From positions 138,501 through 202,500 of the forward strand of contig JABMCL010002141.1 in the NCBI GenBank assembly GCA_018857735.1: a stretch of DNA of 64,000 nt, in the 5' to 3' direction. The stretch is from Alviniconcha marisindica (lineage: Eukaryota; Mollusca; Gastropoda; Provannidae). The notes beneath the pieces are model-generated. The model was given only the letters and a program-made list of their open reading frames with translations, did not search any database and had not been told where the DNA came from. How positions within the stretch are numbered: the stretch's first letter is position 1; each line of letters starts with the position of its first letter. Below are positions 6,058 to 62,183 of this stretch, piece after piece. A program made the position numbers and the translations under genes.

Positions 6058-6743
6058 ACATACATTTTGCTTAATGTCCTCAGATGCTAAAAAGCATATT
6101 TAAAAATTAAATTATGGACAACATGTAGAACAGTCTTGTCTTGAATATCAAATGAGATTGGTATAATTGGTATCATTTTGATTAGACGTATGTTTGGTCA
6201 GGAATCAAGTCTGGATAATTAATTGTATTTAATATGCTGTTTTATTGGATTTTCTCATTAGGATTTAGATGCAGTCTTGGTTTATTTATGCATCCATTAA
6301 TGACAAACGCTGATTCAAAATGAGTGGGTGGAGTTTGTTGATTTAATGTAATAATTATAATGTTTGGTATTATATAGTAGTAAGGTGACAAGTTCTTAGT
6401 TTATTTTCTTGCAGCAAGTGCAAGTAGAGAAAAGCATGCATGTCCAGTGGGTTCTAGAAGTTCTGAGTTCATAGCTCACTATGATTCAGTGACAGGTTTA
6501 GTTGTGTCAGTTGCAGAATGTATTTACTGTTAGAAGGAAGCAGCCCAGGGTGATATAGACCTTTGTCAAACTGATAAGGTATAGGAATATATGTATATCC
6601 ATTTGTTGTAATACTGATATTTCTGGTATGGTATCTCACATATTTAAATTCATGACTCATTCACTTGTCTTTGTATTATGTACTTATTCTATTATTTTGT
6701 CATTTCATTTATTTATGGGTTATATGGTTTGTGTAATGGTGAA

Positions 6744-8011: not shown

Positions 8012-8099
8012 ACTGTATTCATACTAGTCAATATTTCTTTTTTGTTTTGGACAGTGTCAGGGTTGAAGTACAAAAACAGATAAATGGTTTAGCTCTCCA

Positions 8100-8156
8100 G
8101 TGGTTGTCCCTAATATGTCAACCCGACATCCGAGGACATGAAGCCCCACATCATCA
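8100..8156 (+). mobile_element. 57-bp insertion of the hairpin retroelement tail
   Basis: Only the tail of the U2-SINE/LINE family is present: TTGTCCCTAATATGTC, ACCC, GACATCCGAGGACAT, then an ATC-type end. It is flanked by perfect 10-bp duplications, TAGCTCTCCA at 8090-8099 and 8157-8166. This shows a real target-primed insertion truncated to the 3' hairpin. Confidence 0.85.
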
Positions 8157-8215
8157 TAGCTCTCCATCTCAGTTTTCACAGTTTTCACTGTTTAACTGTT
8201 GTTTATGTGTCATTT

Positions 8216-9919: not shown

Positions 9920-10915
9920 ATAATTATAATAATAATAATGGATACTTAAGAGCGCCTAGAATGCACTGGCCTTAAGCGCTTACACATTCTTTAAATGTGC
10001 AGATTTTCATAATTCAACACGTGCGCATGTGCACACACATACACACACACATAAGGCAATGGGACTGAAGAAAAGATTTTTTAAAAGAGAAAGATTTTCA
10101 AGGAAGATTTGAAAGAACTGACAGAGGTAGATGATGGACAGAAACAGGGAACTGGTTCCAGATAACCGGAGCCTGGTAAGAGAAGGAGCACTGACCACTG
10201 GGCTTTGTTTGGAAGGATGGTATTCTGAACACTCAGAGTTCGCAGATGAGCAGAGCTGCTGAGATGGAGTGTAAAGGTGAAGAAGTTCTCAAAGGTACAT
10301 GGGAGCCTGATGAGAAATGATCTTAAAGCAAAGCAAAGACAACTTGCATTTGATCCTCTGCTCAGTAGGTAGCCAGTGAAGAGAATAAAGCATAGGAGTG
10401 ATGAGGGTGGATCTGTTTGTTCTGAAAATGAGTCTTGCAGTATTCTTGCATGCTTTTTGAAGTTTAGAAAGAAGATACTTAGGACAGCCCGCCACAAGCA
10501 AGTTGCAATAATCTAGTCTTGAAAGAACAAACGCACACAACAATTTTTTGGTGACATCTTCGGACAGACAGTGGCATATTGCACTAATCTGATGATGTTC
10601 CAGATAGCATATATACAACAAACAGAGATTTGCTGTTGGAAATAGAGAGAGTAGGATCAAGACAGACACCTAGGTTGCGAACTGTGTTGGCAAGTTTGAT
10701 GTCAGAACCCTCCAGGTTTATGGACTGTGGAACAGAGTCAGAGTTGAGAATCATCTTCGAAGCAGTCAGAATAATTTCCATTTTATGATTGTTATCTGCA
10801 GTTAATTATTTGTCATCCAAGGTTTTACATCAGAAATACAAGACTGAGTTGAATGAATGATTTCAAGAAGTTTACTCCTCTTTTCTATGTTGGGGGAGGT
10901 ATCTGGTTAAAAGCG
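9920..10915 (-). mobile_element. Jockey/CR1-group LINE, 3' part
   Basis: Read on the minus strand, broken frames give CISDVKPW, NLGVCLDPTLS, LSRLDYCNLLVAGCPKYLL, LHWLPTEQRIKCKL and, after frameshifts, SFKSSLKIFL. These are the thumb and C-terminal blocks of a Jockey/CR1-type reverse transcriptase. The 3' UTR carries CA repeats and the 3' end an (ATT)n run near 9925-9945. The same family recurs at 57225-57900. Several stops and frameshifts make it dead. Confidence 0.8.
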
Positions 10916-14589: not shown

Positions 14590-17298
14590 AGGGCTTGTAA
14601 AGGCAGTTTTTGTTTGCAACGGAACGTTGAAAATCGACCCAATTATGAAAGTCTAGTGCATAACATGACCTTTAAATCTAATAAAATGTCAATGCCATGA
14701 AAGTAAGTATGTTTACGAAGGAAGAAATGCATGCCGATCAGGCCGAATTTCGTCTGCTTGTTTTAATCTCGAAATACGCGCGAGATCCGCGACGTAGGTC
14801 TCTGACGTCACAAACAGACCACTTAGGCGAATGGCGAATGAGGCGCGTTTTCACCATCAATCGGTCCACAACGAAAATGCCACGCCGAATGTGCGGCCGT
14901 GGGATGCGCAGAGCTGCAGACCAAAGTGTCGTTGTTTTCCTTTCACACCTTCCCGAAAGATAGCAGTCGAAGGAAGCTTCATCCTTGGAGATTCGAACTG
15001 GAAACTGTTCCAAGTCGGTTACCCTGTGGACACCCACACAGACATGATTTTTTTACTAAAGGGTATCGGTCACACATCGCCCGGCTTTCGCTAGGTTGAT
15101 CCTTGGTAGATGTATGAAACCTCCGTCCTTGCCAATTCAACAAGGAATATATCCAGACCGACCAAAGGACTCTGAAATACATTTTGACACCTTGGCACCC
15201 AGTGCAAAGATTAAAATTAAAAAAGGGGAAAAACCTTTTTCACAAGAAACCCTCCAGAAAAAGAAAGGGAAATCAACAAAAGAGGCAAATGAACACACAA
15301 ATCCTAAGCAAGAATGAACTCGTAATAAATGCAGAAGAAGAAGAAAGGAGAGAAAGAAAACAAACAAAAACAAAAGGACATGGTAAACACGGAGAAAAGA
15401 AAGGAAAAACAGGAGGTACAACTATTGAACTACCAACAAATACCCCTGCCTTGTCTAAGAAACAAAACAAAAGCGAGGCAAAAACATCAATGAAAACAAC
15501 CGAGAGAAAAGTAAAAGCCGAAAGGTAAACAGAAACTCGGCTGGCCTGTGCACCAACGAATAGTACAGGGCTTAGGGAAAAATAGCGGCACTCTCACGGG
15601 GCCGCGCCGAAGCCACGGCACCATTCGGTCGACATAGCAGTTTGTCCCTAATATGCTCTTTAGCATCTGAGAACATTAAGAAAGAAAGAAGGCAAAGACA
15701 GTAAGTCTAGCACGAATGCCTACAGCAGAAAGGCCGTGTAAGAAGAAAAAGCCGTGACAAAAAAAGAAAAGAAAAAGAACAGACAAAAATGCCTAGGCAA
15801 AGAAAGAAAGACCAAACCACAAATGTTGACGGCAAAACGAAAAATGGCTGCCCTAATCACGCAAGCAAACAGCTGACACCAAATGAAACAAACAAAACAG
15901 CTGAAACCACCTCAAAATCCAAACGGTGGCCTACCTGCAAACATAAGGTGGAAAAAAAACCCACCAAATCACAACAGTCTAATAGACTACTGTCTGCAAC
16001 AAATGAGTGGACGACTACATTGACTACATTTGGTGCAGCCATAAGAGCATAGAGCAAAAATAACTGTGCGACAAACAGATGGAAAGCCAAATTAACCATA
16101 ACTAACATGAATCTTAACTAACTCTAACTAATCCCTCACTAACCCGGCTTCCATCTAGAAAAATAAAGGCTGCAGACTGATAAAACAAATCGCTAATCAG
16201 GACTACCGATGACAATGCATCGGGATGTAAACAAATGCGGACGAAAAGAGAAAGCGGGTACGAAATGGCCAATAAACCTGAGATAAAAAATAAAAAAAGA
16301 TGAAGAAAGAACGCATGGTGGAAAAGAAGAGGAAAAGAGAGAAAAACAAAACAACAACACTTTCTGAAAAGAAAGGGGAGGCAAGAAATGTCAGCGAGCA
16401 ACAAGACAAAGGCTGGACACACGTAATCCGTGTACACAATACAATCCATTCAGCCGACAACAACACGGCAGGGCAACAGACGCTCACGAACTACCCCACA
16501 CAAAGAAAGAATGAGCGGTTCGTTAAACATCGAGACTACCCCCTCACTCGTACATCGCGAATGAACGATATAACTCGAGAAACAAAAAGGGGAAGCCATG
16601 AGAAAAAAACAGTGAATGGCAAGATCCGGCAACTAGCCCAACCCCAAACCCTAACCCAGGGAGGCCACGGAATCGCTAGTCTATTGAACTAGAACGAACA
16701 AACCTTTTTCATCGTTACATAATGATAAACAAGGCTAAACTGGGAAAATAAAATAAAACACCCAAATAAAAGGCAGGCTCCCTGATAAGGTCCAGCCTGT
16801 AGTGAAAGCTAGAGTAAACACAACGAAAACGACCGAAACGCCACGCACCTAACAAGGCTCGAGAAAGATGAAATAACAAGGGGGAATAAACAAAGGCCCA
16901 ACTACTGAAAAGGAGTTTCATCCCTATATGTTGTTTTGAAATCCTCTTTATATTATTTGAACTAGACATTTTTCCAAGCCGGTTGCCCTGTGGACACTCA
17001 CACAGACCCGACTTCCACGTTTGGTTGCTGGTCTGTTTGTGACGTCACTGCCCGACCGTTGACCTTTAGCTCTCGCGGATCTCGCATTCAAAATGCGCTG
17101 GTTTTGAAACGTTCAGTTGACCGTATTTTCCGACCTTTTTGCTAAAATAAACGCATTACAACCTAGTCGAGGCCTGAAAAAGTTTTAAACATGTGAGTAA
17201 TAGACTGTTTCTTATCTTCGAACGTTAGTACGGACCTATATGTTGTTTTGAAACGATTTGGAGTCATTTTGTGTCCCGAAACTGCGTTTACAGGCCCT
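14590..17298 (+). mobile_element. 2.7-kb Kolobok-like transposon (TTAA, THAP-like)
   Basis: TTAA flanks both ends (14586-14589 and 17299-17302). The termini are inverted repeats: AGGGCTTGTAAAGGCAGTTT on the left and, reversed, AGGGCCTGTAAACGCAGTTT on the right. A THAP-like N-terminus begins near 14878, with MPRR, GCAEL and KVSLFSFHTFPKD in different frames, so it is frameshifted. TTAA duplications plus a THAP domain point to the Kolobok superfamily. The middle (about 15190-16690) is purine-rich and codes for lysine-rich frames that I do not recognise. A 30-bp-class direct repeat (CGGTTACCCTGTGGACACC) at 15017 and, diverged, at 16981 brackets this middle part. Confidence 0.7.
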
Positions 17299-17620: not shown

Positions 17621-18280
17621 GAACTAACAGCACTCGACAGACGTCACACGAATAACATGGGACACATGCACCACCATACGACGTTCGGCTACAAAAGATT
17701 CAGCGGCTCATCAGATTATTGTCTGAAAAAAACCCCGGATACACGGACAAGTGACTCCACAGTGCTTCCCCGCCCTGGGGTGCGAGGGGTATACAAAGAA
17801 AAAGCTACAGCCTTGATCCCGACTTCCTGTATTTCAAAACCGAGTTAGGACGAAGGAAAGAAAGGAGAGTGTTTGTGAGGCCAGAGAGTGAGAACTAACA
17901 AATCCTTCAACAAGTGGGTCCCAGCACAACCCGTTTTTGTCGTTGCGAGGCCGTCTGCAGACCCCTTGCTCCCTGGAGGGTTTCACCACAAAACGCATTA
18001 ACACGCTGAGGCCTGAGGGCTGTAGAACGTACCGAACACTACTCACACATCAGTTAGTGGTAATGTCGACCTCATTTAAATCATCCGCTAAAAGAATTCC
18101 CGAAGGTTACAGCTACAAATTTGACTCTTCTGTTTTGTTGACAATTGTACAATTTAACACCACCGTTCCCCTGCCCCTTTTTGTCTTTCGTTGTCTTTCA
18201 TTTGTAAAAACAGTAGCGAAACCCGTTTGCAAAAGAGAATGGATCGCAATAAACAGTGTAATACTGATACGCGCATAGTG

Positions 18281-18481
18281 ATCGCTTCTCGGCCTTTTGG
18301 CTAAGATCATAGTTCAGGATCTGTGTGAGAGTCGAGGTGGCCGTCCTGGGCTGTCTGTCCTAACGAGCTTTCTGGCTTCTGTGGACGTAAAGATTTATTG
18401 AATCATGCTTCGGCATTGGTCACAGCTTGTCCCTAACATGTCAGCCGACATCTGAGGACTAAACATCACTTCATCATCATC
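18281..18481 (+). mobile_element. SINE with a U2 snRNA 5' head
   Basis: The element begins ATCGCTTCTCGGCCTTTTGG, then CTAAGATCA. These 29 bases equal the 5' end of metazoan U2 snRNA from its first nucleotide. The next 15 bases still match U2 at 11 positions when aligned. A unique body (GAGAGTCGAGGTGGCCGTCC, GTGGACGTAAAG) follows, then the hairpin tail TTGTCCCTAACATGTC/GACATCTGAGGAC and an ATC repeat. CGCGCATAG flanks it at 18270-18278 and 18482-18490, a perfect 9-bp target duplication. The U2 gene itself is not present, because the Sm site and 3' stem-loops are missing. Two headless copies occur at 24996 and 57546. Confidence 0.85.
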
Positions 18482-18490
18482 CGCGCATAG

Positions 18491-23848: not shown

Positions 23849-24995
23849 ACCACCCCTTCTGGCGTTTTATATATATACATTTGTTTCTACCTTCTCTTTT
23901 AAATTTCAAGCAGCACAATCGATATCTTGTATTTGTACATTCACCCCTTTGAGTGTTTTGCACCACAGAATAATTGCGCCTCCTTATATAACAAGCCATC
24001 CAAATGCCTCGTATCCGGAGGCTAAACAGGCTATTTAAGGCTCCGTCCCTTCCACTCCATAATATCAATAATGAATAATAGAGAAAGATAAACAGGCCGT
24101 CAGCTTGGACATGTCCCAGCACCCAAGAAGCCCGATACTTCAGCTCTCACGCCTGGAGATTGGCTGGTTGTCGGGCGGAACATGCCAATGTTACTTTGCA
24201 CAAGAGAGGCACAAAATCAATGCAATTTGTGGGGTAAACCGGAACTCCAACGCCAATGCTTGGAGCAGAGGAGAAGTAACGAAATGTGTCAACCATAAAA
24301 CAAAACCTGACTGCACAACAATTTCCTACCCTCATTACGAAACTGCCCGCAGAACCTGCAAGAAGGAGAGGAACTCTGCTGACAAAACTTAAATACAAGT
24401 CTCGGAAAATACAACACTGTAATGAAATCCGAGAGGCGGCTAGCAAATGGTGCAAGCATTATAATCATAAATTCAAACATGAACTAGACCTGTCGCCAAG
24501 TCGCGACAAATACGCTACTGGGGCTTACACCTGGTCAATATCATTAATTATGCACAAGTTTCAGTATTTTCCCACTGAGTTTGCAATTACTCTTTTATAC
24601 ATTTTAGAAATCTGGCTTATGACAGACAGTGAACAAGAAGAGCAAACGCTCAGTCGATTTCACTTTCGTAATAGGAAAATTCAAACCATCCTTTTTATTT
24701 TCTGCTTCTTGTTCCTCACTCCTTCTTCTTCTTCGGTAACTTTCCTGTGGTCCTGAAAATGGACGACAGTCATTCGACATATAATTCGTTATTAACTCCT
24801 AGTCGATTAAGTATGAACGCATAGAGTCAATTCCGATACAAATTACCGTCACACAGAATTTCAAGTATCTATATCTCGCTTAACAACACCCAAGACGGAT
24901 AAAATAGCCATAATAAAGCTTTTGTCATGACAGGACACCTGTAAATTATTTCCCATAAGTAATAATAATAGGGTATTTATAGAGAGACACAAAGC

Positions 24996-25173
24996 TCATA
25001 GTTCAGGAGCTGTGTGAGAGTCGAGGTGGCCGTCCTGGGCTGTCCGTCCTAACGAGCCTTCTGGTTTCCGTGGACGTAAAGCTATATTGAACCATGCTTC
25101 GGCAATGGTCTCAGCTTGTCCCTAATATGTCAACCGACATCCGAGGACATTAAGCAACACTACCTACCTACCT
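24996..25173 (+). mobile_element. U2-family SINE, copy lacking the first 26 nt of U2
   Basis: It starts at TCATAGTTCAGGAGCTGTG, the point where the 18281 copy passes from the exact U2 match into the body. It keeps the whole body and the hairpin tail (TTGTCCCTAATATGTC, AACC, GACATCCGAGGACATTAAG) and ends in CTACCTACCTACCT. Perfect 11-bp duplications AGACACAAAGC lie at 24985-24995 and 25174-25184, so this is a clean insertion. Confidence 0.88.
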
Positions 25174-25304
25174 AGACACAAAGCGCTTTACAACTTGACT
25201 GAAGGAAAACATGTAACGGGTAAATACTCACACACCAATCAATGGCATAAAAATACATTTATAAGCACACTTATTCATACACAGTATAATGAAACATATG
25301 CACA

Positions 25305-26195: not shown

Positions 26196-26994
26196 AGGAC
26201 AAGTCCAAGGTTAGAGGTGATTTTTGAAACGCTTTCTGTTAAAGCTCGCTGAGAACGATGATGTAGGTGAAACTGTGATCTGAGGGTTATAAAAGCACGA
26301 AAAAAGACATTTTCTGTCGTACCGAAAGCGTCGCCATGACGCCCAAATCACGTGACCATATGCCTACTACGTCACTCTGGGAGTCGCTGCAAAATGGCCA
26401 ACTCGAGCTCCGAAGACGAAACTGATACATTGCCCGAGAGACCCACAAGGATACAGCCGTATCAGTTTGAGCCTGTCAGGCAGGATTTTGAAAGAGTATG
26501 CGGTATTCCAAGGGGTTTGCAAAATCTCACTCACTGAAGTGCTCGCTACACAAATGGGCGTGATGCGGCGCAGCAAGAAAGTCAGCTCGTTTGAATTGTA
26601 TAAATTTAATCCACTTTCGTCTCACTGCGGGTCGATTGTGCGCGAGCTCGTGCATTGTTATACCTGGGGTCGTCTGCGAATTGTTACAGTTCGCGGCAAC
26701 ACAGTAGGCCGGCATAGTTAACTTTTTTGTCGACCACATGCATACACAGTTTACTGAAGAATCTAAGATGGCAACCGCACTGACTCTCCAGACTGACGTC
26801 ACCTCCGGGAAAGTCACGTGACTGATGGAGAACCCGAGACTGTAGTCTCGGCCAGCCTACAGAAAATAAAATCGATTAAAAACCCAATTAAACATTTTAA
26901 TTTTAATTTTATTTCATTAAATCTGAAACTAGTGTCTCATTTGTCAATCATTTCGATGGTCATTTTGCATACTTAAAAACCTTGGACTTTTACT
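26196..26994. mobile_element. 799-bp Kolobok-like element with THAP exon, copy 1
   Basis: TTAA flanks both sides (26192-26195 and 26995-26998). Inverted termini are AGGACAAGTCCAAGGTT and, reversed, AGTAAAAGTCCAAGGTT. On the minus strand an ATG at 26715 opens MPAYCVAANCNNSQ, continuing to RKWIKF and LCSEHF, a THAP zinc finger with C-x4-C and C-x2-H ligands. It stops at a good donor (CACTTCA/GTGAGT). On the plus strand a second first-exon-like frame starts at 26395 with MANSSSEDETDTLPERP and PYQFEP. This is probably an internally deleted derivative. A second copy is at 42181. Confidence 0.85.
26527..26715 (-). pseudogene. THAP-domain exon of the Kolobok-like element
   Basis: About 60 codons encode the start of a THAP DNA-binding domain (C at positions 5 and 10, a conserved tryptophan in RKWIKF, CSEH as the second ligand pair). 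The same frame is open in the second copy at 42538-42726, so it was conserved when the two copies arose. No transposase catalytic region remains in the element, so by itself it cannot transpose. Confidence 0.75.
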
Positions 26995-38637: not shown

Positions 38638-39983
38638 AATCTTTTTCTTTCTCTCAGTGACTCTTTCACATCTCTCTTTCATGCATTCTGGCCATTCAGC
38701 AAAAACAACAGAAAATATTTAGAATGTTTTCCAACCTGCTATCGGTTTTGTCTATGATAGTCTAAACTAGATCAGACAAGAGCATGCTCAGCAAAATAAA
38801 TTTCAGTTCAATCTTCCCCATGTTGTTGTAACATTTGTTTAAGATTGATCATTGTATGGCCAAACATTTTTCATGTGAATCAAAAAAGGGAGGGAAAACA
38901 TTTAAGACTAATTCCAAAGGCATGAGAATTAAAATAGACACAATTCTCATGAATAATCAACCTGAACTTTGAAAGAAATTATCGCAACATCTGTCACCTA
39001 ATCTAAAACTGGCTTTAAAAAAATAATTAAATACACAACATAAACTACCCATTGGCACATGCTGAAGTAACTAAACAAACAAGGCTTTTGAATACCCCAG
39101 TTATGTGCCTAGTTTACTGGTCATACTGGTGTAATGATGCACTGGTATACTAAGTGTGATCATGAACAGTTCAGAAGTTCACAATTCTGTGGTGGTTTAA
39201 ACCTTCTCTACAACCTTTATCACAGAAAAAGTATGCCCAACATTTTAAACAGAACTTCACCCAGTAATCACGCACAGACGTAATAATATATAACACTGGA
39301 AGCAAAAGGTTCAGAACATAAAACACACAAACATTCTTTCAGGGATCTAGCCACCATCTGAACTCTTGATCAGATAAGAAATTACCAAGAAATCTAAAAC
39401 TTTTGGTTTTAAATGTTTGATTTTGCTGTAACCTTGAAATTGTTATGTCAAGGTCACTGAAGGTGGGTAGGAATGGTGTAAAACTAAGTAAGCACTACTG
39501 CAGTTTAACATTAATTTATGACATTTATATAATAATGTTTAAAAAACATGCATACACAGAAACACAGTGCAATGAATGCTATGATGTGTCATGGCTGGCT
39601 GGCTATAGTACCACTTTAAATTACATGCTGAAATATTTTCTTGCAGAGACAAAAATGTCACCTGAGTGAAGGTCAAGGTTGGATATAATTTCAATTTTAT
39701 AACAGGAACACAGTCAATACTTCCAACTTCTAAGTAGCATCACTGATGACACATAATACACCCCCCCTCCGTGTCTGTCTAATCTCCTTCAACTGTACAC
39801 TCCAACAAGACAATTACAATCTGCATCAGTGCATCTGTGCATGCATGCATGTTGCTAGTGTTAATGAAAAGTGCCCTGCGCTCCCACCTTGTGTGGTAGA
39901 TATATAGGCACTGTAGAAATCCCCTTTATTATTATTATTATAGCAGCAGGAATATGTATGCAAAGAGGCAAGGACAGTGTTAC
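38081..39983. other. Intronic sequence, little recognised
   Basis: A CT microsatellite lies at 38583-38637. CpG is very scarce. No coding sequence beyond the adjacent exon 4 was seen. Confidence 0.5.
38583..38637. repeat. Interrupted (CT)n microsatellite
   Basis: CT runs broken by CC at regular points. Confidence 0.9.
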
Positions 39984-40170
39984 CATCTGGCCAGAGGTAG
40001 TTGACAAGTGGCAGTTTGGCAGAGTGTTTACGCCACAATCGCAAGACGTAGTCTTCCCATCGAACCATCTTGCCAAGAATGAGCATGACAGGGATTGTAG
40101 GAAGGCCAATCAGCAGGAAAAGGGGGTCAGCACGCTCCATCACATTAAGGCCTTCTTTGTGACCCAACAC
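39984..40170 (-). CDS. MARCHF5: MARCHF5 exon 4: second transmembrane segment
   Basis: After a TTTACAG acceptor the exon reads VLGHKEGLNVMERADPL, then the hydrophobic FLLIGLPTIPVMLILGK, then WEDYVLRLWRKHS. All three parts are near-identical to the human protein. It ends at a GTAACA donor in phase 1 after PD; open frame beyond this point is intron. The segment after the RLWRK motif is less conserved than the rest, as in other species. The following intron is 34.8 kb, the largest in the window, and contains most of the mobile elements described here. Confidence 0.93.
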
Positions 40171-40249
40171 CTGTAAAAAATATTTAAAAAATAAAGTAAA
40201 AGCAACAAATGATTAATCTAGGGATCAACTAGGAAGGTGAAAGCTCAGA

Positions 40250-41204
40250 GAGAGAATTTTATTCTTAATGTCCTCGGATGTCCTGGAGACATATTAGGGA
40301 CAAACTGTATGAATCTCTTAATTCTAACTTGTGAGCAAAACTGGTTGGCTATAAGACGGTTTAGTTTGGATGAGTCCACCTCTGTCGAGGGGACCCATGT
40401 CAGGACCTAGGAGGAAAGTTAAAATTTTGAAATTTGGTGCCCTAGTGGCCTTAAAATTTGTATTTTATTTTCCTCAAAAGTTAAAATTTACATTAAAATG
40501 CGAATAAAAACCTTCCTAGGACCAGTTTAAAAGCAACTATTTCTAACAATAACTTAACTTTTTTTTAAAAGACTGTTTGTTAAGAAATAGCTATCAGCAC
40601 AAGTTATATTTTATTTTAAGACAGTTGGTTAAAAATCAACTACAGTTGTACCTAATTAGGTTAAAAAGTTTCAGTATTTACAGCTAATTTGTTTACATTT
40701 GTCCAAAGTTAGCGCCTTTGTCTTTATGTTTCTTCCCTCCTCTCTTCTTTTTCTTTGCCATTTCAAACGGCACTGGCGGCTCGGTGGCCTCAGCTTGGTG
40801 GGGGGGCGAGTCTGGCTTACTATATGGTTGGTGGGGGGGCGAGTCTGGCTTACTATATGGTCTTGCTAAAGCACACAAGCGCGCCAAGATGGTAGTGACG
40901 TTTTCCTGCTGATTCATTGGCTGTTCGATGTCAGGTTCGGAGACCCATCCATCGTCTAGCTGTACTGTTTGGGTGGCAACTGACACCTTTTTCTCTAAGT
41001 TTACCTGCACCTCTACCTCTACAGTTTTGGTTGCTGCTGCCCGAGGGCTTTCAGTTTGTGTTGCCACTGTGGCAGTAAGACGTTGTTTAACATTATTGAC
41101 TACTTTTTCTGTGGCTCTTTCGATCAGTTTCTGCTCCAGCCTACTGAGGCGGAGCGTTTCTATGTTGGTTTGTATTTGATTTTTCTGGGCTTTAGTTTTA
41201 GTTA
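40250..41204 (-). mobile_element. 955-bp 5'-truncated LINE with 13-bp target duplication
   Basis: GTGAAAGCTCAGA flanks both ends (40237-40249 and 41205-41217), a perfect 13-bp duplication. On the minus strand an open frame of about 170 codons contains VATQTE and VATQTV repeats, a doubled PYSKPDSPPHQ (33-bp tandem duplication) and a basic end KKKKRGGKKHKDKGANFGQM before a stop at 40693-40695. A 3' UTR of about 430 nt follows, ending in the hairpin tail TTTGTCCCTAATATGTC, TCCAG, GACATCCGAGGACATTAAG. No reverse transcriptase is included. The intact frame suggests a young insertion. Assignment as a LINE rests on the truncation, target duplication and tail. Confidence 0.75.
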
Positions 41205-42180: not shown

Positions 42181-42963
42181 AGGACAAGTCCAAGGTTTGG
42201 GGTGATTTTCGACACGATTTCCGTTAAAGCTCGCTGAGAATGATGATGTAGGTGAAACTGTGATCTGAGGGATATAAATGCACAAAAAAAGGCATTTTCT
42301 GTTGTACCGAAAGCGTCGCCATGATGCCCAAATCACGTGACCATATGCCTACTATGTCACTCTGGGGAGTCACTGCAAAATGGCCAACTTGAGCTACGAA
42401 GACGAAACTGATACTTTGCCGAGAGACCCACAAGGATACAGCCGTATTAGTTTGAGCCTGTCAGGCAGGATTTTGAAAGAGTACCGGAACATCGTGTCAG
42501 CAAACCCCATGCGGTATTCCATGGAGGTTGTGAAATCTCACTCACCGAAGTGCTCGCTACACAAATGGGCATGATGCGGCGCAGCAAGAAAGTCAGCTCG
42601 TTTGAATTGTATAAATTTAATCCACTTTCGCCTCATTGCGGGTCGATTGCATGGGAGCTTGTGCATTGTTATACCTGGGGTCGTCTGCGAATTGTTACAG
42701 TTCGCGGCAACACAGTAGGCCAGCATAGTTAACTTTTTTGTCGACCACACGCATACACAGTTTACTGAAGAATCTAAGATGGCAACCACACTGACTCCCC
42801 AGACTGACGTCACTTCCGGGAAAGTCTACAGAAAATAAAATCAATTAAAAACCCAATTAAACATTTTTTTTATTTTTTTTATTTCATTAAATCTGAAACT
42901 AGTGACTCATTTGTCAATCATTTCGATGGTCATTTTGCATACTTAAAATCTTTGGATTTTACT
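42181..42963. mobile_element. 783-bp Kolobok-like element with THAP exon, copy 2
   Basis: TTAA is duplicated at 42177-42180 and 42964-42967. Termini and interior match the 26196 copy closely over their whole length. The minus-strand THAP exon is open again (MLAYCVAANCNNSQ, LCSEHF) and ends at CACTTCG/GTGAGT. The plus-strand frame starting at 42380 is shifted by an indel relative to copy 1 but retains DETDTLP. The insertion sits inside the TIR element of locus 1, and locus 2 at about 54905 has the empty site. Confidence 0.88.
42538..42726 (-). pseudogene. THAP-domain exon of the Kolobok-like element, copy 2
   Basis: Same THAP start as at 26527-26715, with C-x4-C, RKWIKF and CSEHF retained and only a few substitutions (for example HELAHN to HKLPCN). 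Transposase catalytic residues are absent from the element. Confidence 0.75.
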
Positions 42964-45448: not shown

Positions 45449-46016
45449 TTGGGCGATTCAGGCAGGGTTGTTAACTCCCTTGACTTTTGCCCAGCATCGC
45501 TTAAGTCCCTTGGCTGCTTTTACTTCCAGTGCGTACTTTCTTCACAATAGTGAATTTGCGAATTTTACACTGCCAACTTTAAAGGCATTTTTGGAGGCCC
45601 ATAGTCATAATGTGTCTGGCAATAAGCAATAACTTGTTGCTCGTGCTATAGGATGCCCCAAAATGCATTTTTTCTACGCACTCAAGATCTTCTGGTCAGC
45701 CAAAAATCGACGAAAAGACACTTTTTTTCCACCCTCCATCCCTTTCCACGGTAATTTTTGCAACTACTACTACTTGGTTCTTAATGTCCTCGGATGTCAG
45801 ATGACATATGAGGGACAAGTAAATTTTGCAACTGCAACAGTATTGGCATTTGTGCTGCTTCGCAATTCTAGGTTCAACTTCTACTGTTATACACAGCGTG
45901 AAGCTATGCCTACTCAGAAATCAGCCCAGAAGTGCGCTGCGACCTCTCGCGACTTCTTGCATGAAAGATTACAAAGTGCATTCACTCTAGCAAACCAGCT
46001 TCACTGAATCGCCCAA
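45449..46016. mobile_element. 568-bp TA-flanked TIR element (MITE)
   Basis: Perfect 13-bp terminal inverted repeats TTGGGCGATTCAG, with TA on both sides (45447-45448 and 46017-46018). That is consistent with a Tc1/mariner-type target duplication. No transposase. It carries the 54-bp retro-tail insertion described next. Confidence 0.78.
45766..45819 (-). mobile_element. 54-bp insertion of the hairpin retroelement tail
   Basis: The minus strand reads TTGTCCCTCATATGTCATCT, GACATCCGAGGACATTAAG and an AGT repeat. It is flanked by 14-bp duplications with one mismatch (TAATTTTTGCAACT at 45752-45765 and TAAATTTTGCAACT at 45820-45833). Nothing upstream of the hairpin was copied. Confidence 0.85.
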
Positions 46017-46243: not shown

Positions 46244-47364
46244 CTGAAAGTGGACAACACAGTTGGCATGAAACACATAACAGCAGTGCTCAGTGAATTT
46301 TGCGAAAGTATAAACACACACGTAAAATGGTACTACTCAAATAGTTATGGCAGCAACCAGCTATTACATGTTAAGGCAACCAGAAGCTGGTATGCCATTA
46401 GAAACAATAATCCAATATAATCAAATCAGTTCACATCATGAAGTATAATTTAACAACTAAGACTACATTTAAAATTAACTGTCTACTTGTAAAACTAGCT
46501 ATCCCCCCCCGGACACATTTAGTTAACTGGATAATTAACTGAGTATACCCAAATTACATTAGTTACAATATAAAAATATGTTGCTATTATATATAAAATG
46601 ATGTTATATGTATATATATAATACCAATAATACTGAACATAAAATATGAACAAAAATTTAAACAAGCACACACGCACATGCACCTCCCTATCTCCACACC
46701 ACTCAAATACGTAATTAACAAAATGTAACAAACACAACAATATACTGCAAAAAGCTTAGAAACTGGTCTAAAAATAAACCAGTTTCAAAGCATACCCCTG
46801 CACTTTTCCTCCAGCACTTTGTGTGATGCTGACATCACATCAGTATTAATTTGGATGGTACCATAAAAGCAAAGTTGTAAGTGTGTTTTTTGTTTGTTTT
46901 TGTTTTTCCTTCTATTTTTCTTGTTTTATTTTTACTTTAAGGGGGAGGGGCTGGGGGGAGGGGGGAGACAGAGGGGGTGTTTGAGCTATGTTTCCTGTAC
47001 CTGCACCGTGGAAACATCATGGGAACAACCACAAGCTTTGCATTGTGGCATATCTAAGAGTGCATGACATCCACACTTCTGACATTATGAGCCAAACACA
47101 TAAAAGGTTAAAAGGAACAATAATTTAATATCACAACGTAAAATGTGGGAATTTTTAATGTAAGCCACTTTTTCAAGTAAAGTGGCTCCCTTAGTTTCAT
47201 AACAAAAAATAGACTGCATTTGATCATTTGTTATGATTTTTGTACAAAAATATGTGAGAAAACTAGACAAACCTTAGGAACAAGATCATATTGCTAATAC
47301 TCAACACAACAATGCAACAAGGTGAACAACTTTTTCAGTAAGTGTACGACAGTCTCGGACTCAC
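46244..47364 (-). other. Second MARCHF5 intron (between exons 2 and 3)
   Basis: AT-rich intron with a G-rich stretch near 46940-46978. No element recognised. Confidence 0.6.
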
Positions 47365-47570
47365 CCAGCTTTGGAAAGATGATGATGTATTCAGTGTTAC
47401 ACTGTGGACATGCCACTTTGGCTGTGCTGTTTCCTTTTTGCTTCTCATCCACCCAACGTTGTAAGCAGCTCTGATGGACCCACTTGGTTGTACCACGACA
47501 ACGACATGGTCGTACCCATGCTGCTTCTGTGTCATCTTCTTCTGTGGCGAAACACACCCAACAAGACTGC
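47365..47570 (-). CDS. MARCHF5: MARCHF5 exon 2: RING-CH zinc finger
   Basis: This exon encodes the E2-binding RING-CH domain. The zinc ligands are visible in order as CWVC, RPCRC, WVHQSC and ACPQC, giving the C4HC3 pattern. The stretches STAKVACPQCN and FPKLG are nearly identical to vertebrate MARCHF5. The donor follows CTGG and reads GTGAGT, leaving phase 1. The preferred acceptor is the CCCCAG ending at 47571, preceded by branch-like TTAAT. The reading frame also stays open upstream to an ATG at 47596, which would add MLRTLMLPRQ. That could be a real start if exon 1 is non-coding, but the CCCCAG acceptor directly before conserved sequence argues that it is read-through of intron. The next exon lies 1.1 kb away. 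Confidence 0.92.
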
Positions 47571-48780
47571 CTGGGGAGCATTAAAGTGCGTAGCATTAGT
47601 CATGATAAGGATGAATTCAACAAGTCTTGTACATTGTAGCTAAAATGTCATGGTCTTGTGGTCTAGGATGCTGAAGTAAATTGATGAAAGCATGAAGCAG
47701 CCAGTGTGGGCTGATCCCAAAATGAAGACAGACTTTTTTACCTTCCATCAGACATGGCCTAACAGCAGACCTGGTATAATTCGTAGCCAACAAAGTCAGT
47801 TACTCAAAATTTAAGGTTTTCTTTGGTCTACACATCTAGAAAAAGTTACCATCTTGAACATAACATTAACACTACAGTGACTTCTTTATTGTAATGAAAC
47901 TGAAAATGTTTGCAATATGTCAAATATTACACACAGCAGAGCTAGTTGTTGGCCATTCTGTGATCTCCTTTCATAGACTGTTGGCCTATAGACAACACAT
48001 GAAAACCCCCATTGAAGTTCAGGAAAAGGCCTGTCATTCCTGAAGGCTGTGGTTGCAATTAGTATTGAACTATACCACCTCTTTCTGCTGTGTATCACTA
48101 TCAATGTGTCAGTCTGTTACAATGTAGGTAGCCATCACTACAATGCCACAGACTGATCTGCTCTTTACTAGACAGAGTGCTACTAGGTAATGAGAATCAT
48201 AGCAGGCATAGCAGATTCAGAGACCAAACTCCTCATGAAAATGGTAACTCGCCTGATCTCATTGTCACAGTGTACACAGCTGATTGCTTGTCACCTAAGA
48301 CCAGGGATGGTGGGGCTTCACTGTGAAACAAAGTGTGACCACCATCCATGAAGACTGTGCATCCTATAAAAGTATAAGGTCTGAATCTCCAGACTGACTA
48401 TGGAAATGGAAGAAGTCACACATGCTCTCTACTAGATTGTCTTGAGAGGTGATGGTCAGACCGCACAGGCCATCATCCTCACTTTACAGGCTTGTTAGAA
48501 AAGAAAAAAAGAAGAAACGGGAGGCCCAGACTGACATGGAACAACGTTTGACATCTATCCTTGAAGGCTTCTGTGGATGCACTGTCCTGGATGAACTAAA
48601 GTCAATGAAAACCAAATCTGTTGCCTTGTGCAGCAAAATACATCCCACTGTGTAGTAATACTGGATGTCAGGTTGGTCAGTATAAACTGTAGTTATATGC
48701 CCATTTTGCTTGCACTGGGTCTGGTTATTAGGACATCAACAAACATAATTTGGTTGGAAAGACATCGATGGTACAGAAAA
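47571..48780. other. Intronic sequence upstream of exon 2, nothing recognised
   Basis: Only short frames without domains. Probably the first intron of MARCHF5 if exon 1 is near 63.5 kb. Confidence 0.45.
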
Positions 48781-48789
48781 TATAGGATT

Positions 48790-49165
48790 CCACAAAGTTC
48801 TGAATCTTTGCTGTGGCCTTGACGTGATCTTTTCACAGAACAATCATCATCATGATGTACCATCAAACTAAGTTTGGTTGCAAAAAGATTAGCAGTTCAA
48901 TAGTTATGGTAGCAACAGTCATACTCAAACGTTTTGATTATACAAGCCTTAGCTGTGACCTTGACCTTGAAGACTGCAAATCGGTCTTCTTGAATGCTAC
49001 TCTGGTTCACAAAGATGCATCACTACAGAAAGTTTGGTTACAAAAGGTTTTGCAGTTCAGAGGATATCATTCGGACAAACATTCATTCAAATCATTAACC
49101 TTTCCTGTGACTTTGACCGTGAACACAGCAATCCAATCTTTTCATTGGACACTTTTGGCTTACGA
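48790..49165 (+). repeat. TGACCTTGA / GTTTGGTTACAAA module, about two units
   Basis: AAGTTTGGTTGCAAAAAG near 48869 and AAAGTTTGGTTACAAAAGG near 49028, each preceded by a GTGACCTTGACC-type block. A 151-codon frame at 48852-49307 runs through the repeat by periodicity and is not a gene. Confidence 0.7.
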
Positions 49166-50430
49166 TAATTACACACACCAACCTAAGTACAAAGCCCTCA
49201 TCAAGACCAACAAGAACCTACCATTCCAGTACAGACTGCTCCTGTCCATGAGTGGCACAATCATTCCTATTCTAAACTTTTGCAAAGTGGTGCAAAGTGA
49301 TTTGTAATTATATTGCATGAAGAACCCTAAACATCACTGCACAATGGCTGTAGGACAGCAAACCATATTATAATAACTGAGAAACATAATGATCATCAGG
49401 ACTTAGGTGTTACATTTCATAGAAAGTATGTCAAAATGCTACAGGAAGGACTAACAAAGAATAATCAAAATATTCACCATTAGTTTATATATTATTATAA
49501 GGCCTTGGTTAGACCTCACCTAGAGTACTGGAATTACATGGTTCCATCATCTCAAGAGGAAATTAACAGACAGGAAATGATCAGATCTGTCTTAATTTAA
49601 GTAAGACTGAGCAAAGACTGAGGGTATTAATTAACCCTTACCAAATATCTGTTTCCCACCAGATATTTCTGTACATCATGGGTAAAAAATATGTTAAAAA
49701 AGACAAGAAAAAAAAAGACCCATACAATGCAAATAACAAAACTGTTCCTCTCCACATATCATGGGTAAAAAAAGCAACCCCAAGAACCCTTGAAGTGTCA
49801 ACATTATACACAAGAGAAAAGCTGTTCACCTGACCCAGACCCACCCTGGGTCATCTGGCTGTCTAGCTGCATCTACTCAAGCATTGCAAAGCTGTCATTT
49901 TTGTGGAATCCTCAGGCAAAGTGGTAAGAATCCCCTCCCCTTAAAAAGATCCATTCTGTAGGGCAGTTTAGAGCATCAGCTTTCCTCTGCTCCCCTACTG
50001 ACCTATTGACCAATACACAATGGGGTACAATGGACACAAAAATTAAGGTCCCCTCTGCTGACAACCCAAAGCTGACAAAATGTTCTCCCTTTAACTCCTG
50101 GAGCAGGTCTGAATACAACCATGCACGTTTTACCCACTGCCAGCAAATTCTTCTTTGTCCTAAAAAAGCGTAATTCCATCTTCCTGATCCATTCCCCTTC
50201 ATTTTTTCCAACCCCTCTCTCTACTTTTTAACTGTGCTAGTTTTGACTAATGCAGTTTCTTGTGTTGACCCACAAAATAAAATCAGTCATCACCCTTCTC
50301 ATTGGTACAACAGATTAATGCAGGCTCCAAAAGTCTGATGCTGAGTGGCCAGGGAATACAAAAAGGCTCCAAATATGTGAGATTCTGTAGTGTAACACTA
50401 ACAGTGAATCAGGTGTGTGTCTGTGGTTTT
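49166..50430. other. Intronic sequence, possible LINE debris
   Basis: Near 49500-49560 the translation LVRPHLEYW resembles a reverse transcriptase C-terminal block (plus strand). The rest is unrecognised apart from the block shared with about 4700 (AGGTCCCCTCTGCTGA). Confidence 0.4.
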
Positions 50431-53639: not shown

Positions 53640-54400
53640 ATTGGTTCTCAGTCGGCTGACTGTTTGTATACAAACTTTTGTAACCAAACTTGGTATTGTG
53701 GTGCACCACCATGAGCTAATGTCAACCACACAAAAGAACTGGGATTCCATCTTCAAGATGAAAGTCACAGTGTGGGCTTTTATAAACAAAATATTATGGT
53801 TTCTACAATATCTTTTATTAGTTTTAAACCAATGAGTCTTTTGCAACCAAACTCACTTTGATGGTAGATCATCATAAGCAAAGAAGAGTCCAGTGAAAAA
53901 AAGTTTTAATTAGTTTGTATAATATGAACCGTTGAACCTTTTGTAACCAAACCCAGTATGGTGATACATCATTATAAGCCAGAGTGTCATGCGCGAAAAA
54001 TGGGTTGCAATCTTCAGCGTCAAGGTCACAGTAACTGAGTTTGGGCTCATACAATGAAATCATGACTATTTCTACTATATGTTCTGAACTACTGATTTTT
54101 TTTTCGGTGACCAGCTTAGTTTGGCAGTGCATGTTCATAAGCTGGAGTGTCTTGTGAAAAGGCTGCCTTGCTGTATTGAAGGTCAAACTCACAGTGAAGA
54201 TTCTGAACTTCAGTGAATGCTTGCCCAGACAATATCTCTGACCAATCAAACTTAGTATGGTGATACATCATCATCAGCCAGAGTATTATACAGAAATATC
54301 ATTTTGCTATGTTCAAGGTCAAAACCACAATCGTTTCTACCAGATCTTCAGAAATACTGAAACTTTTGCAAAACCCAAATTAGTTTGATGGCACATCATC
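53640..54400 (-). repeat. Tandem array of the TGACCTTGA / GTTTGGTTACAAA module
   Basis: TTTTGTAACCAAACTTGGTA-like blocks recur near 53675, 53838, 53940, 54105, 54240 and 54355, with ATGGTGCA/TACATCATCATAAGC and CAAGGTCA words in each. Minus-strand frames such as 53872-54249 are repeat-derived. Confidence 0.7.
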
Positions 54401-57224: not shown

Positions 57225-57900
57225 TTGGGGGGGGGGGGGTGTCTTCTTTTTCTCTTTACACTTCCTGGCAGCTCTGCTCTTCTTCAGATACCCGAGTGTT
57301 CAGAATACCATCCTTCCAAACAAAGTCCTGTGGTTGGCGCTCTTTCTCTTACCAGGCTCCAGTTATCTGGAACCAACTCCCTGTTTCTGTCCAGCATTCT
57401 ACCTCTCTCAGGTCTTTTAAATCTTCCTTGAAAACCTTTCTCTTTTTAAAAATCTTTTCTTCAGTCCCATTGCCCTGATATGTGGCTGGTGTGTGTGTGT
57501 GTGTGGTGTGTGTGTGTGTGTGTGTGTGTTGTGTGTGTGTGTGTTTAGGTAGGTAGTGTTGCTTAATGTCCTCAGATGTCCGTTGACATATTAGGGACAA
57601 GCTCAGACCAATGCTGAAGCATGGTTCAAGTTTTACGTCCACAGAAACCAGAAGGCTCGTTAGGACGGACAGCCCAGGACGGCCACCTTGACTCTCACAC
57701 AGCTCCTGAACTATGTGTGTGTGTGTGTATGTGTATGTGTGTCTGTGTGAGTGTGTGGGTGGGTCTGTGTGTGTGTGCATGTGTGTGTGTGTGTGTTCAT
57801 GTTGTATGTGTTGAATTTCGACAATATGTTCTTGTAAAGAATGTGTAAGCACTTAGGGCCTGTGCGGGTTAGGCACTCTAAGTATTCATTATTATTTCTT
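57225..57900 (+). mobile_element. Jockey/CR1-group LINE 3' end, interrupted by a SINE
   Basis: Codes for VFRIPSFQTK, FSYQAPVIWNQLPVSV and SFKSSLKTFLFLK, matching the 10081-10250 copy. The GT-rich 3' UTR is split by the U2-family SINE at 57546-57714 and resumes to AAGCACTTAGGGCCTG and a TTATTATT end. Confidence 0.75.
57546..57714 (-). mobile_element. U2-family SINE, third copy
   Basis: The minus strand starts ATAGTTCAGGAGCTGTGTGA, has the full body and hairpin tail (TTGTCCCTAATATGTC, AACG, GACATCTGAGGACATTAAG) and ends in ACTACCTACCTA. It inserted into a GT repeat, so the target duplication is hidden. Like the 24996 copy it lacks the exact U2 head. Confidence 0.85.
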
Positions 57901-61837: not shown

Positions 61838-62183
61838 TAAGCAAGTAAGTAAACATGGTGCTTAACGTCCACAAAAACCATAAGGCTTATTAGGTACGGG
61901 GAGAATGGGGGGAAGGGGGTATGGAGGTGTGGGAAGAGGGAGAGTATATATATTATATACCTATCGCTACACAGTCACCACCAGAATGACCTGCATTAAG
62001 ATGGGCAGCGATGAGAGCCATTTTAATATTTCATTAATTGTGAGGGACCAAGTCACAAGACCGTGTCCGCAAACCACAACTTTTGAAGAGAAAGGAGAGC
62101 CAAGCAGTATCGAACCGAAGTCCTTCCACTTAATACTAATACCAGCCTACCGCCTTAATTACCACTAGGCCAAACCGGCTCTC
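61838..62183 (-). mobile_element. tRNA-Leu/Ser-like SINE, copy 2
   Basis: Minus strand: AGCCGGTTTGGCCTAGTGGT head, B-box-like CGGTTCGATACTG, the body shared with 20636-20885, and a tail ending GGACGTTAAGCACCATGTTT with CTTACTTACTTG-like repeats. This copy is longer at its 3' end than copy 1 and shows the family's terminal repeat. Confidence 0.75.

Follow-up and report, generated by a model that had tools for sequence, protein, structure and literature searches.

How does a SINE in a gastropod genome come to begin with the exact 5' end of U2 snRNA, and does it stand for a family of U2-headed elements or for a single accident? The locus lies in a 64,000-nucleotide stretch of the Alviniconcha marisindica assembly (contig JABMCL010002141.1), hereafter the window, in whose numbering all coordinates are given. 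The first-pass annotation had proposed two readings, a U2-headed family or a one-off chimera, and both are still live after our analysis, yet the evidence does not bear equally on them.

The element in question, copy A, shows identity to U2 over 29 bases (18281-18309, + strand), its first matching base, 18281, being U2 nt 1. A match of this length has a chance expectation of 4e-13 (64 kb, both strands). The reference for this identity is what we take to be the metazoan U2 start sequence, from which the Rfam U2 consensus departs only at base 3 (a lower-case a there), leaving 28 of 29 bases in agreement. The Rfam U2 model also matches here, with 35 bits and E 1.1e-5 in a search of 301 bases; the gathering score of this model is 46, and a whole-window Rfam scan at gathering scores lists nothing. 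Elsewhere in the window, no 12-mer from U2 nt 1-68 occurs.

The U2 piece is in sense orientation and is joined directly, without filler, to the SINE body downstream. The resulting 201-bp unit (18281-18481) is bracketed by perfect 9-bp target-site duplications with the sequence CGCGCATAG, at 18270-18278 and 18482-18490 (+), which are its only occurrences in the window; a 9-bp match as near both ends was found in 43 of 62,900 random placements of the same spacing. Since a single duplication surrounds the whole unit, the U2 piece and the SINE body were inserted together. A 29-base U2 head from nt 1 and one insertion unit with a perfect 9-bp duplication, both claimed in the first-pass annotation, are hence borne out. 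U2 nt 1 does not directly abut the 5' duplication: TG (18279-18280, +) is interposed, two bases that are possibly non-templated, the G next to U2 nt 1 being perhaps a copy of the cap. The flanks of copy A match nothing else in the window.

To see where U2 ends and the SINE begins, the body must be compared with that of its relatives. Aligned to two other long copies, the body of copy A (18307-18481, +) is full length from its TCATAG start, and it ends in a short (ATC)n-like repeat tail (18466-18481, +). Copy B (24996-25173, +) carries no U2, begins with TCATAG directly after its 11-bp target duplication AGACACAAAGC (24985-24995 and 25174-25184) and ends in an (ACCT)n tail. Copy C (about 57546-57715, -), also without U2 and with an (ACCT)n tail, lies within a CA repeat, so that its exact start (TAG, ATAG or CATAG) is blurred. 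Both copies had been described earlier as starting within 3 bases of the U2/body junction. They are real and start at the junction, B exactly and C within the blur of the CA repeat, but position 57546, taken for the start of copy C, is its 3' end, and its 5' end lies near 57715. As neither of these copies extends past the junction into U2, the SINE normally begins with TCATAG, and U2 lies outside it. The head is thus found in one of the three long copies in the window, and neither B nor C is matched by the Rfam U2 model at E up to 10. At the junction of copy A there is a 3-base overlap: TCA (18307-18309) fits both U2 nt 27-29 and the SINE start, so the position of the junction is ambiguous by three bases.

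A conventional head for this SINE was rejected: ARAGORN found no tRNA in the window, and Rfam, run at E up to 10 on 301-base stretches around A, B and C, found no tRNA, 5S or 7SL. Weak Rfam hits near the copies (sR41, sR30, TtnuCD11, HOTTIP_2, NPPA-AS1_3, mir-3149, t44 and TtnuCD16) were far under their gathering scores and were discarded.

The reading we consider probable is that copy A is the product of a single event, in which a LINE reverse transcriptase would have jumped from the 5' end of the SINE RNA to U2 RNA. We infer an order of events in which the enzyme, recognising a two-stem hairpin at the 3' end of the SINE RNA, would prime on it at the nicked target and copy it to its 5' end (TCATAG...). 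The cDNA end complementary to TCA would then jump, at the RNA level and on this one occasion, to U2 snRNA at nt 27-29; U2 would be copied through to nt 1, two bases would perhaps be added, and integration of the whole cDNA would generate the 9-bp duplication. This chimera is favoured by the duplication around the unit, by the start of B and C at the junction without U2, by the 3-base overlap, and by the inclusion of U2 nt 1 itself, as would be expected for a copied RNA end. There is also a precedent, in the chimeras of U6 with SINEs mobilised by L2. On the other side, by our own estimate a 3-base overlap would be found by chance at about 1 junction in 20.

The age of the different parts of copy A gives a further hint. 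Pairwise identities, with gap columns excluded, are 148/163 for A and B, 143/159 for A and C, and 153/161 for B and C; in 159 columns (6 gap columns excluded) we counted 11 private differences in A, 3 in B and 5 in C. There are no changes in the 29 U2 bases and none in the 18 bases of the duplications. Had the changes in the body occurred after insertion, the probability of a clean head would be 0.125, and that of a clean head together with a clean duplication 0.034. A clean head and duplication next to a diverged body are mild evidence that the body had probably diverged before insertion and that the U2 sequence is newer. This mildly favours a fresh capture of U2, which would suit a one-off chimera as well as a headed subfamily of very recent origin.

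The proposed scheme needs a LINE that recognises the SINE, and the 3' end of the element is informative in this respect. Just ahead of the terminal repeats, ~45 bases fold into two stems of 5 bp each, one outer and one inner (TTGTCCCTAATATGTC...GACATCCGAGGACATTAAG); in copy A this tail hairpin is at 18423-18465 (+) and scores 58.0 bits with R1, a covariance model of seven copies (A to G), copy A among them. Copy H, which has an insertion in the hairpin, was excluded from the alignment. The consensus fold of the seven copies has 10 pairs, of which 2 show two-sided changes, both in copy G: these are two compensatory changes in its inner stem (ATGCT/AGCAT). One outer-stem pair is broken in copy G, and copy A has lost its outermost pair through a 2-base deletion. 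R1 recovers its seven source copies by construction, and finds copy H with 31.0 bits and E 2.8e-6; of five further, weaker hits (E 0.0037 to 0.87), three fall in the inner stretches of copies A, B and C. Folded as single tails, copies A, B, C and D have z-scores of -1.24, -3.28, -0.75 and -1.38. In the fold of the whole element the tail hairpin is present for copy B (z -1.42). For the whole U2-joined copy A, it is missing from the minimum-energy structure, where the region pairs elsewhere, and the fold is no better than that of shuffles (z -0.83), a difference between A and B that counts against the chimera.

The 3' end of this SINE thus consists of a conserved hairpin with short repeats after it. 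Tails built from a conserved hairpin and variable short repeats are used by stringent LINEs such as L2 (PMC4476161). On this likeness, a partner LINE probably recognises the SINE by its tail hairpin. A search for that partner in the window did not find it: reverse-transcriptase-like ORF pieces at 10081-10669 (-) were recognised by eye only, the piece at 10292-10669 (-) gave no Pfam family, and the 381 bases after the stop of the ORF do not contain the tail hairpin.

Five of the eight copies with a hairpin are bare tails of ~50 bases. Copy D (8100-8156, +) is flanked by an exact 10-bp target duplication, TAGCTCTCCA (8090-8099 and 8157-8166), and copy E (45778-45822, -) by an imperfect one of 15 bp, with 14/15 matching. 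There is no clear duplication around copies F (40262-40307, -) and G (15638-15682, +), and no convincing one around copy H (6068-6125, -), so that among the hairpin copies duplications are found for A, B, D and, imperfectly, E. The bare tails are perhaps cases of extreme 5' truncation, with the reverse transcriptase stopping at the hairpin.

The body holds a second hairpin. The inner hairpin region of copy A (18359-18392, +) has a relative in the terminal part of a different repeat (61851-61899, -), with a local alignment score of 40; the scores are 53 for copy B (25044-25099) and 57 for copy C. As a control, none of 4000 random stretches did as well, the best reaching 34. In copy B, the stretch 25044-25099 folds into a similar two-stem hairpin. 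That the inner hairpin simply duplicates the one in the tail was considered and found to be unsupported: 160 of 4000 random stretches equal the likeness between them, and with the tail model the inner stretches reach no better than E 0.16, 0.27 and 0.87. The SINE body seems instead to be a mosaic with two LINE-tail-like hairpins, one inner and one terminal. Their presence in one body suggests that pieces had been joined before in this lineage, and that piecewise joining would be a habit of it.

The main rival to the chimera is a U2-headed SINE subfamily similar to SINEU, of which A would be one of many members, B and C belonging to a headless subfamily. We regard it as unlikely, yet as the alternative to be taken most seriously. 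Copy A is further from B and C than these are from each other, with its 11 private body differences, and has its own (ATC)n tail repeat, so a separate headed subfamily is possible. U2-like bases beyond the junction (see below) would also fit. SINEU elements have been reported, by Kojima in 2015, as U1/U2-headed SINEs of crocodilians, and recurrent gain of U1/U2 heads is said to have occurred in SINEU-1. Tx1-Mar mobilises them, and a Mariner element is their site of insertion. As in SINEU, the 5' sequence of U2 heads a SINE here, for copy A only; unlike SINEU, copies B and C have no snRNA head and a repeated family is not seen in the window. SINEU families are likewise given as U1- or U2-headed in PMC8143547, where the term occurs, and a paper on Daphnia methylation (PMC11963560) applies, among its repeat classes, the label SINE_U to repeats of the crustacean Daphnia magna.

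Against a headed subfamily, the head is present in only one of the three long copies, it has none of its 29 bases changed despite the diverged body, and B and C start at the junction and not at scattered truncation points. There were also no matches in viral_contigs (body 20-mer, tail pattern and junction 28-mer) or in genome_contigs (body 26-mer); neither collection is expected to contain this animal, its own records are perhaps absent from both, and these scans say little about an animal genome. The SINE family with a U2 head put forward in the first-pass annotation therefore finds no support within the window, given one headed copy in three and a pristine head on a diverged body.

A more specific version holds that this is a non-vertebrate SINE family or subfamily whose RNA starts with U2 nt 1-29 and whose body start, TCATAGTTCAGGAKCTGT, is an older, decayed U2 segment. 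We deem this doubtful. The case had been made from 11 of 15 bases matching U2 after base 29, a count that used U2 base 29 twice. Compared with U2 30-44 without gaps, the 15 bases have 2 matches; with one inserted base, as in the Rfam alignment, 11 of 14 match. In a fixed register, 0.055% of 20,000 random 15-mers equalled copy A and 1.3% equalled the form of B and C (0.045% and 0.55% for an 18-mer including TCA). This likeness of the body start to U2 30-43, nearly in register (P 0.00055 in copy A and 0.013 in the B/C form), is a point against the chimera. When the 18-mer is free to match anywhere in U2, P rises to 0.03 for A and 0.31 for B/C, and a 60-base stretch against U2 30-68 gives 0.28. 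Derivation of the head from U2 past the 29 bases is consequently a weak claim, as it needs a gap and fades in the free search. The likeness may have served as a guide for the jump, or may reflect a faint older U2 ancestry. Ancestry of the whole body from U2 was rejected, local alignments being no better than those of shuffles for A (P 0.76) and C (P 0.17). Copy B gave P 0.012 through a 14-base stretch of its tail, 25139-25152 (+), which matches the stem IIa region of U2 at 13/14 bases. This match is probably due to chance: among ~3190 random stretches of that length, 9 share an 11-mer with U2, as copy B does.

Alternatively, the fusion could have arisen in DNA, by insertion of the SINE into a U2 gene or pseudogene at nt 27-29 followed by retroposition of a transcript made from the U2 promoter and starting at nt 1. 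This would account for the start at nt 1 and for the divergence of the source copy from B and C, and non-LTR elements that target U2 genes do exist, Utopia and Keno being those named in PMC4640811. It requires two events, though; the target here is not U2, the flanks have no other match in the window, and no U2 bases follow the SINE tail of copy A, all of which make a fusion in DNA quite improbable. An assembly or cloning artefact, or plain chance, for which nothing speaks except the single copy, is the least credible origin of all, given the 4e-13 expectation for the 29-mer and a duplication that brackets the whole unit.

If copy A is a template-jump chimera, it joins a group of known systems with some differences. 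The U6 snRNA chimeras treated in PMC4476161 involve LINEs and two L2-mobilised SINEs, Mon-1 (platypus) and AnolisSINE2 (lizard). As in those described there, a sense snRNA lies 5' of a retroelement piece with one duplication around the whole, and the element would be mobilised by a LINE through a recognised 3' end. Unlike them, copy A has U2, with an intact 5' end and nothing past nt 29, which denotes an internal landing, and its SINE is full length at the 5' end; almost all platypus U6-L2 chimeras in that account have a 5'-truncated U6. Internal jumps are reported in the same text for 3'-truncated U5 segments. A point against the chimera comes from its human survey, where the U2/L1 chimera is inverted and ascribed to twin priming, and from its suggestion that template switching is perhaps limited to U6 and U6atac. 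In Magnaporthe, the WEIRD/Mg-SINE/MGL chimeras, 33 bipartite elements according to PMC2104539, similarly place an abundant RNA upstream of a SINE by LINE template jump, with duplications, although the RNA and the kingdom are different. Utopia and Keno resemble our case in that a LINE-type element is joined to U2 sequence, but U2 is their target as presented in PMC4640811, while in copy A it lies inside the duplication.

Other genes and repeats in the window were recorded along the way. A coding piece at 47297-47599 (-) has a RINGv domain and resembles the ubiquitin ligase MARCH5; among the best 120 of 131 matches, the two highest are at 98 and 97%, the best named one is from Mytilus galloprovincialis (77% over 80%), and matches from fish, insects and mammals are nearly as good. 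The matches are those of an animal genome, for which a mollusc is a plausible source. By eye only, 39829-40212 (-) looks like the C-terminal part of a MARCH5-like gene. Also by eye, the ORF pieces at 26530-26856 (-), with a THAP domain, and 42541-42825 (-) are similar and are probably copies of one transposon-related gene. The open frames at 48828-49304 (+) and 53875-54267 (-) are likewise similar by eye; the former has no Pfam match and 10 relatives in public assemblies.

Taken together, copy A is real and well bounded, and in all likelihood arose as one chimera of a type already known, in which the partner RNA is unusual. It offers a clean snapshot of how a head can be gained, with U2 from base 1, a full-length SINE and one duplication. 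Our literature searches found no U2-headed mollusc SINE, which is no proof of absence. The bivalve SINE library of PMC10294476 kept, by the selection it describes, only elements with a tRNA-related head, so snRNA-headed elements would have been passed over there. Should copy A belong to a family, snRNA-headed SINEs would be more widespread than the crocodilian cases, a distant animal lineage would have acquired such heads on its own, and searches requiring tRNA heads would have missed these SINEs. If it is single, template jumping to snRNA would extend to U2 and to a SINE whose tail is of the stringent type.
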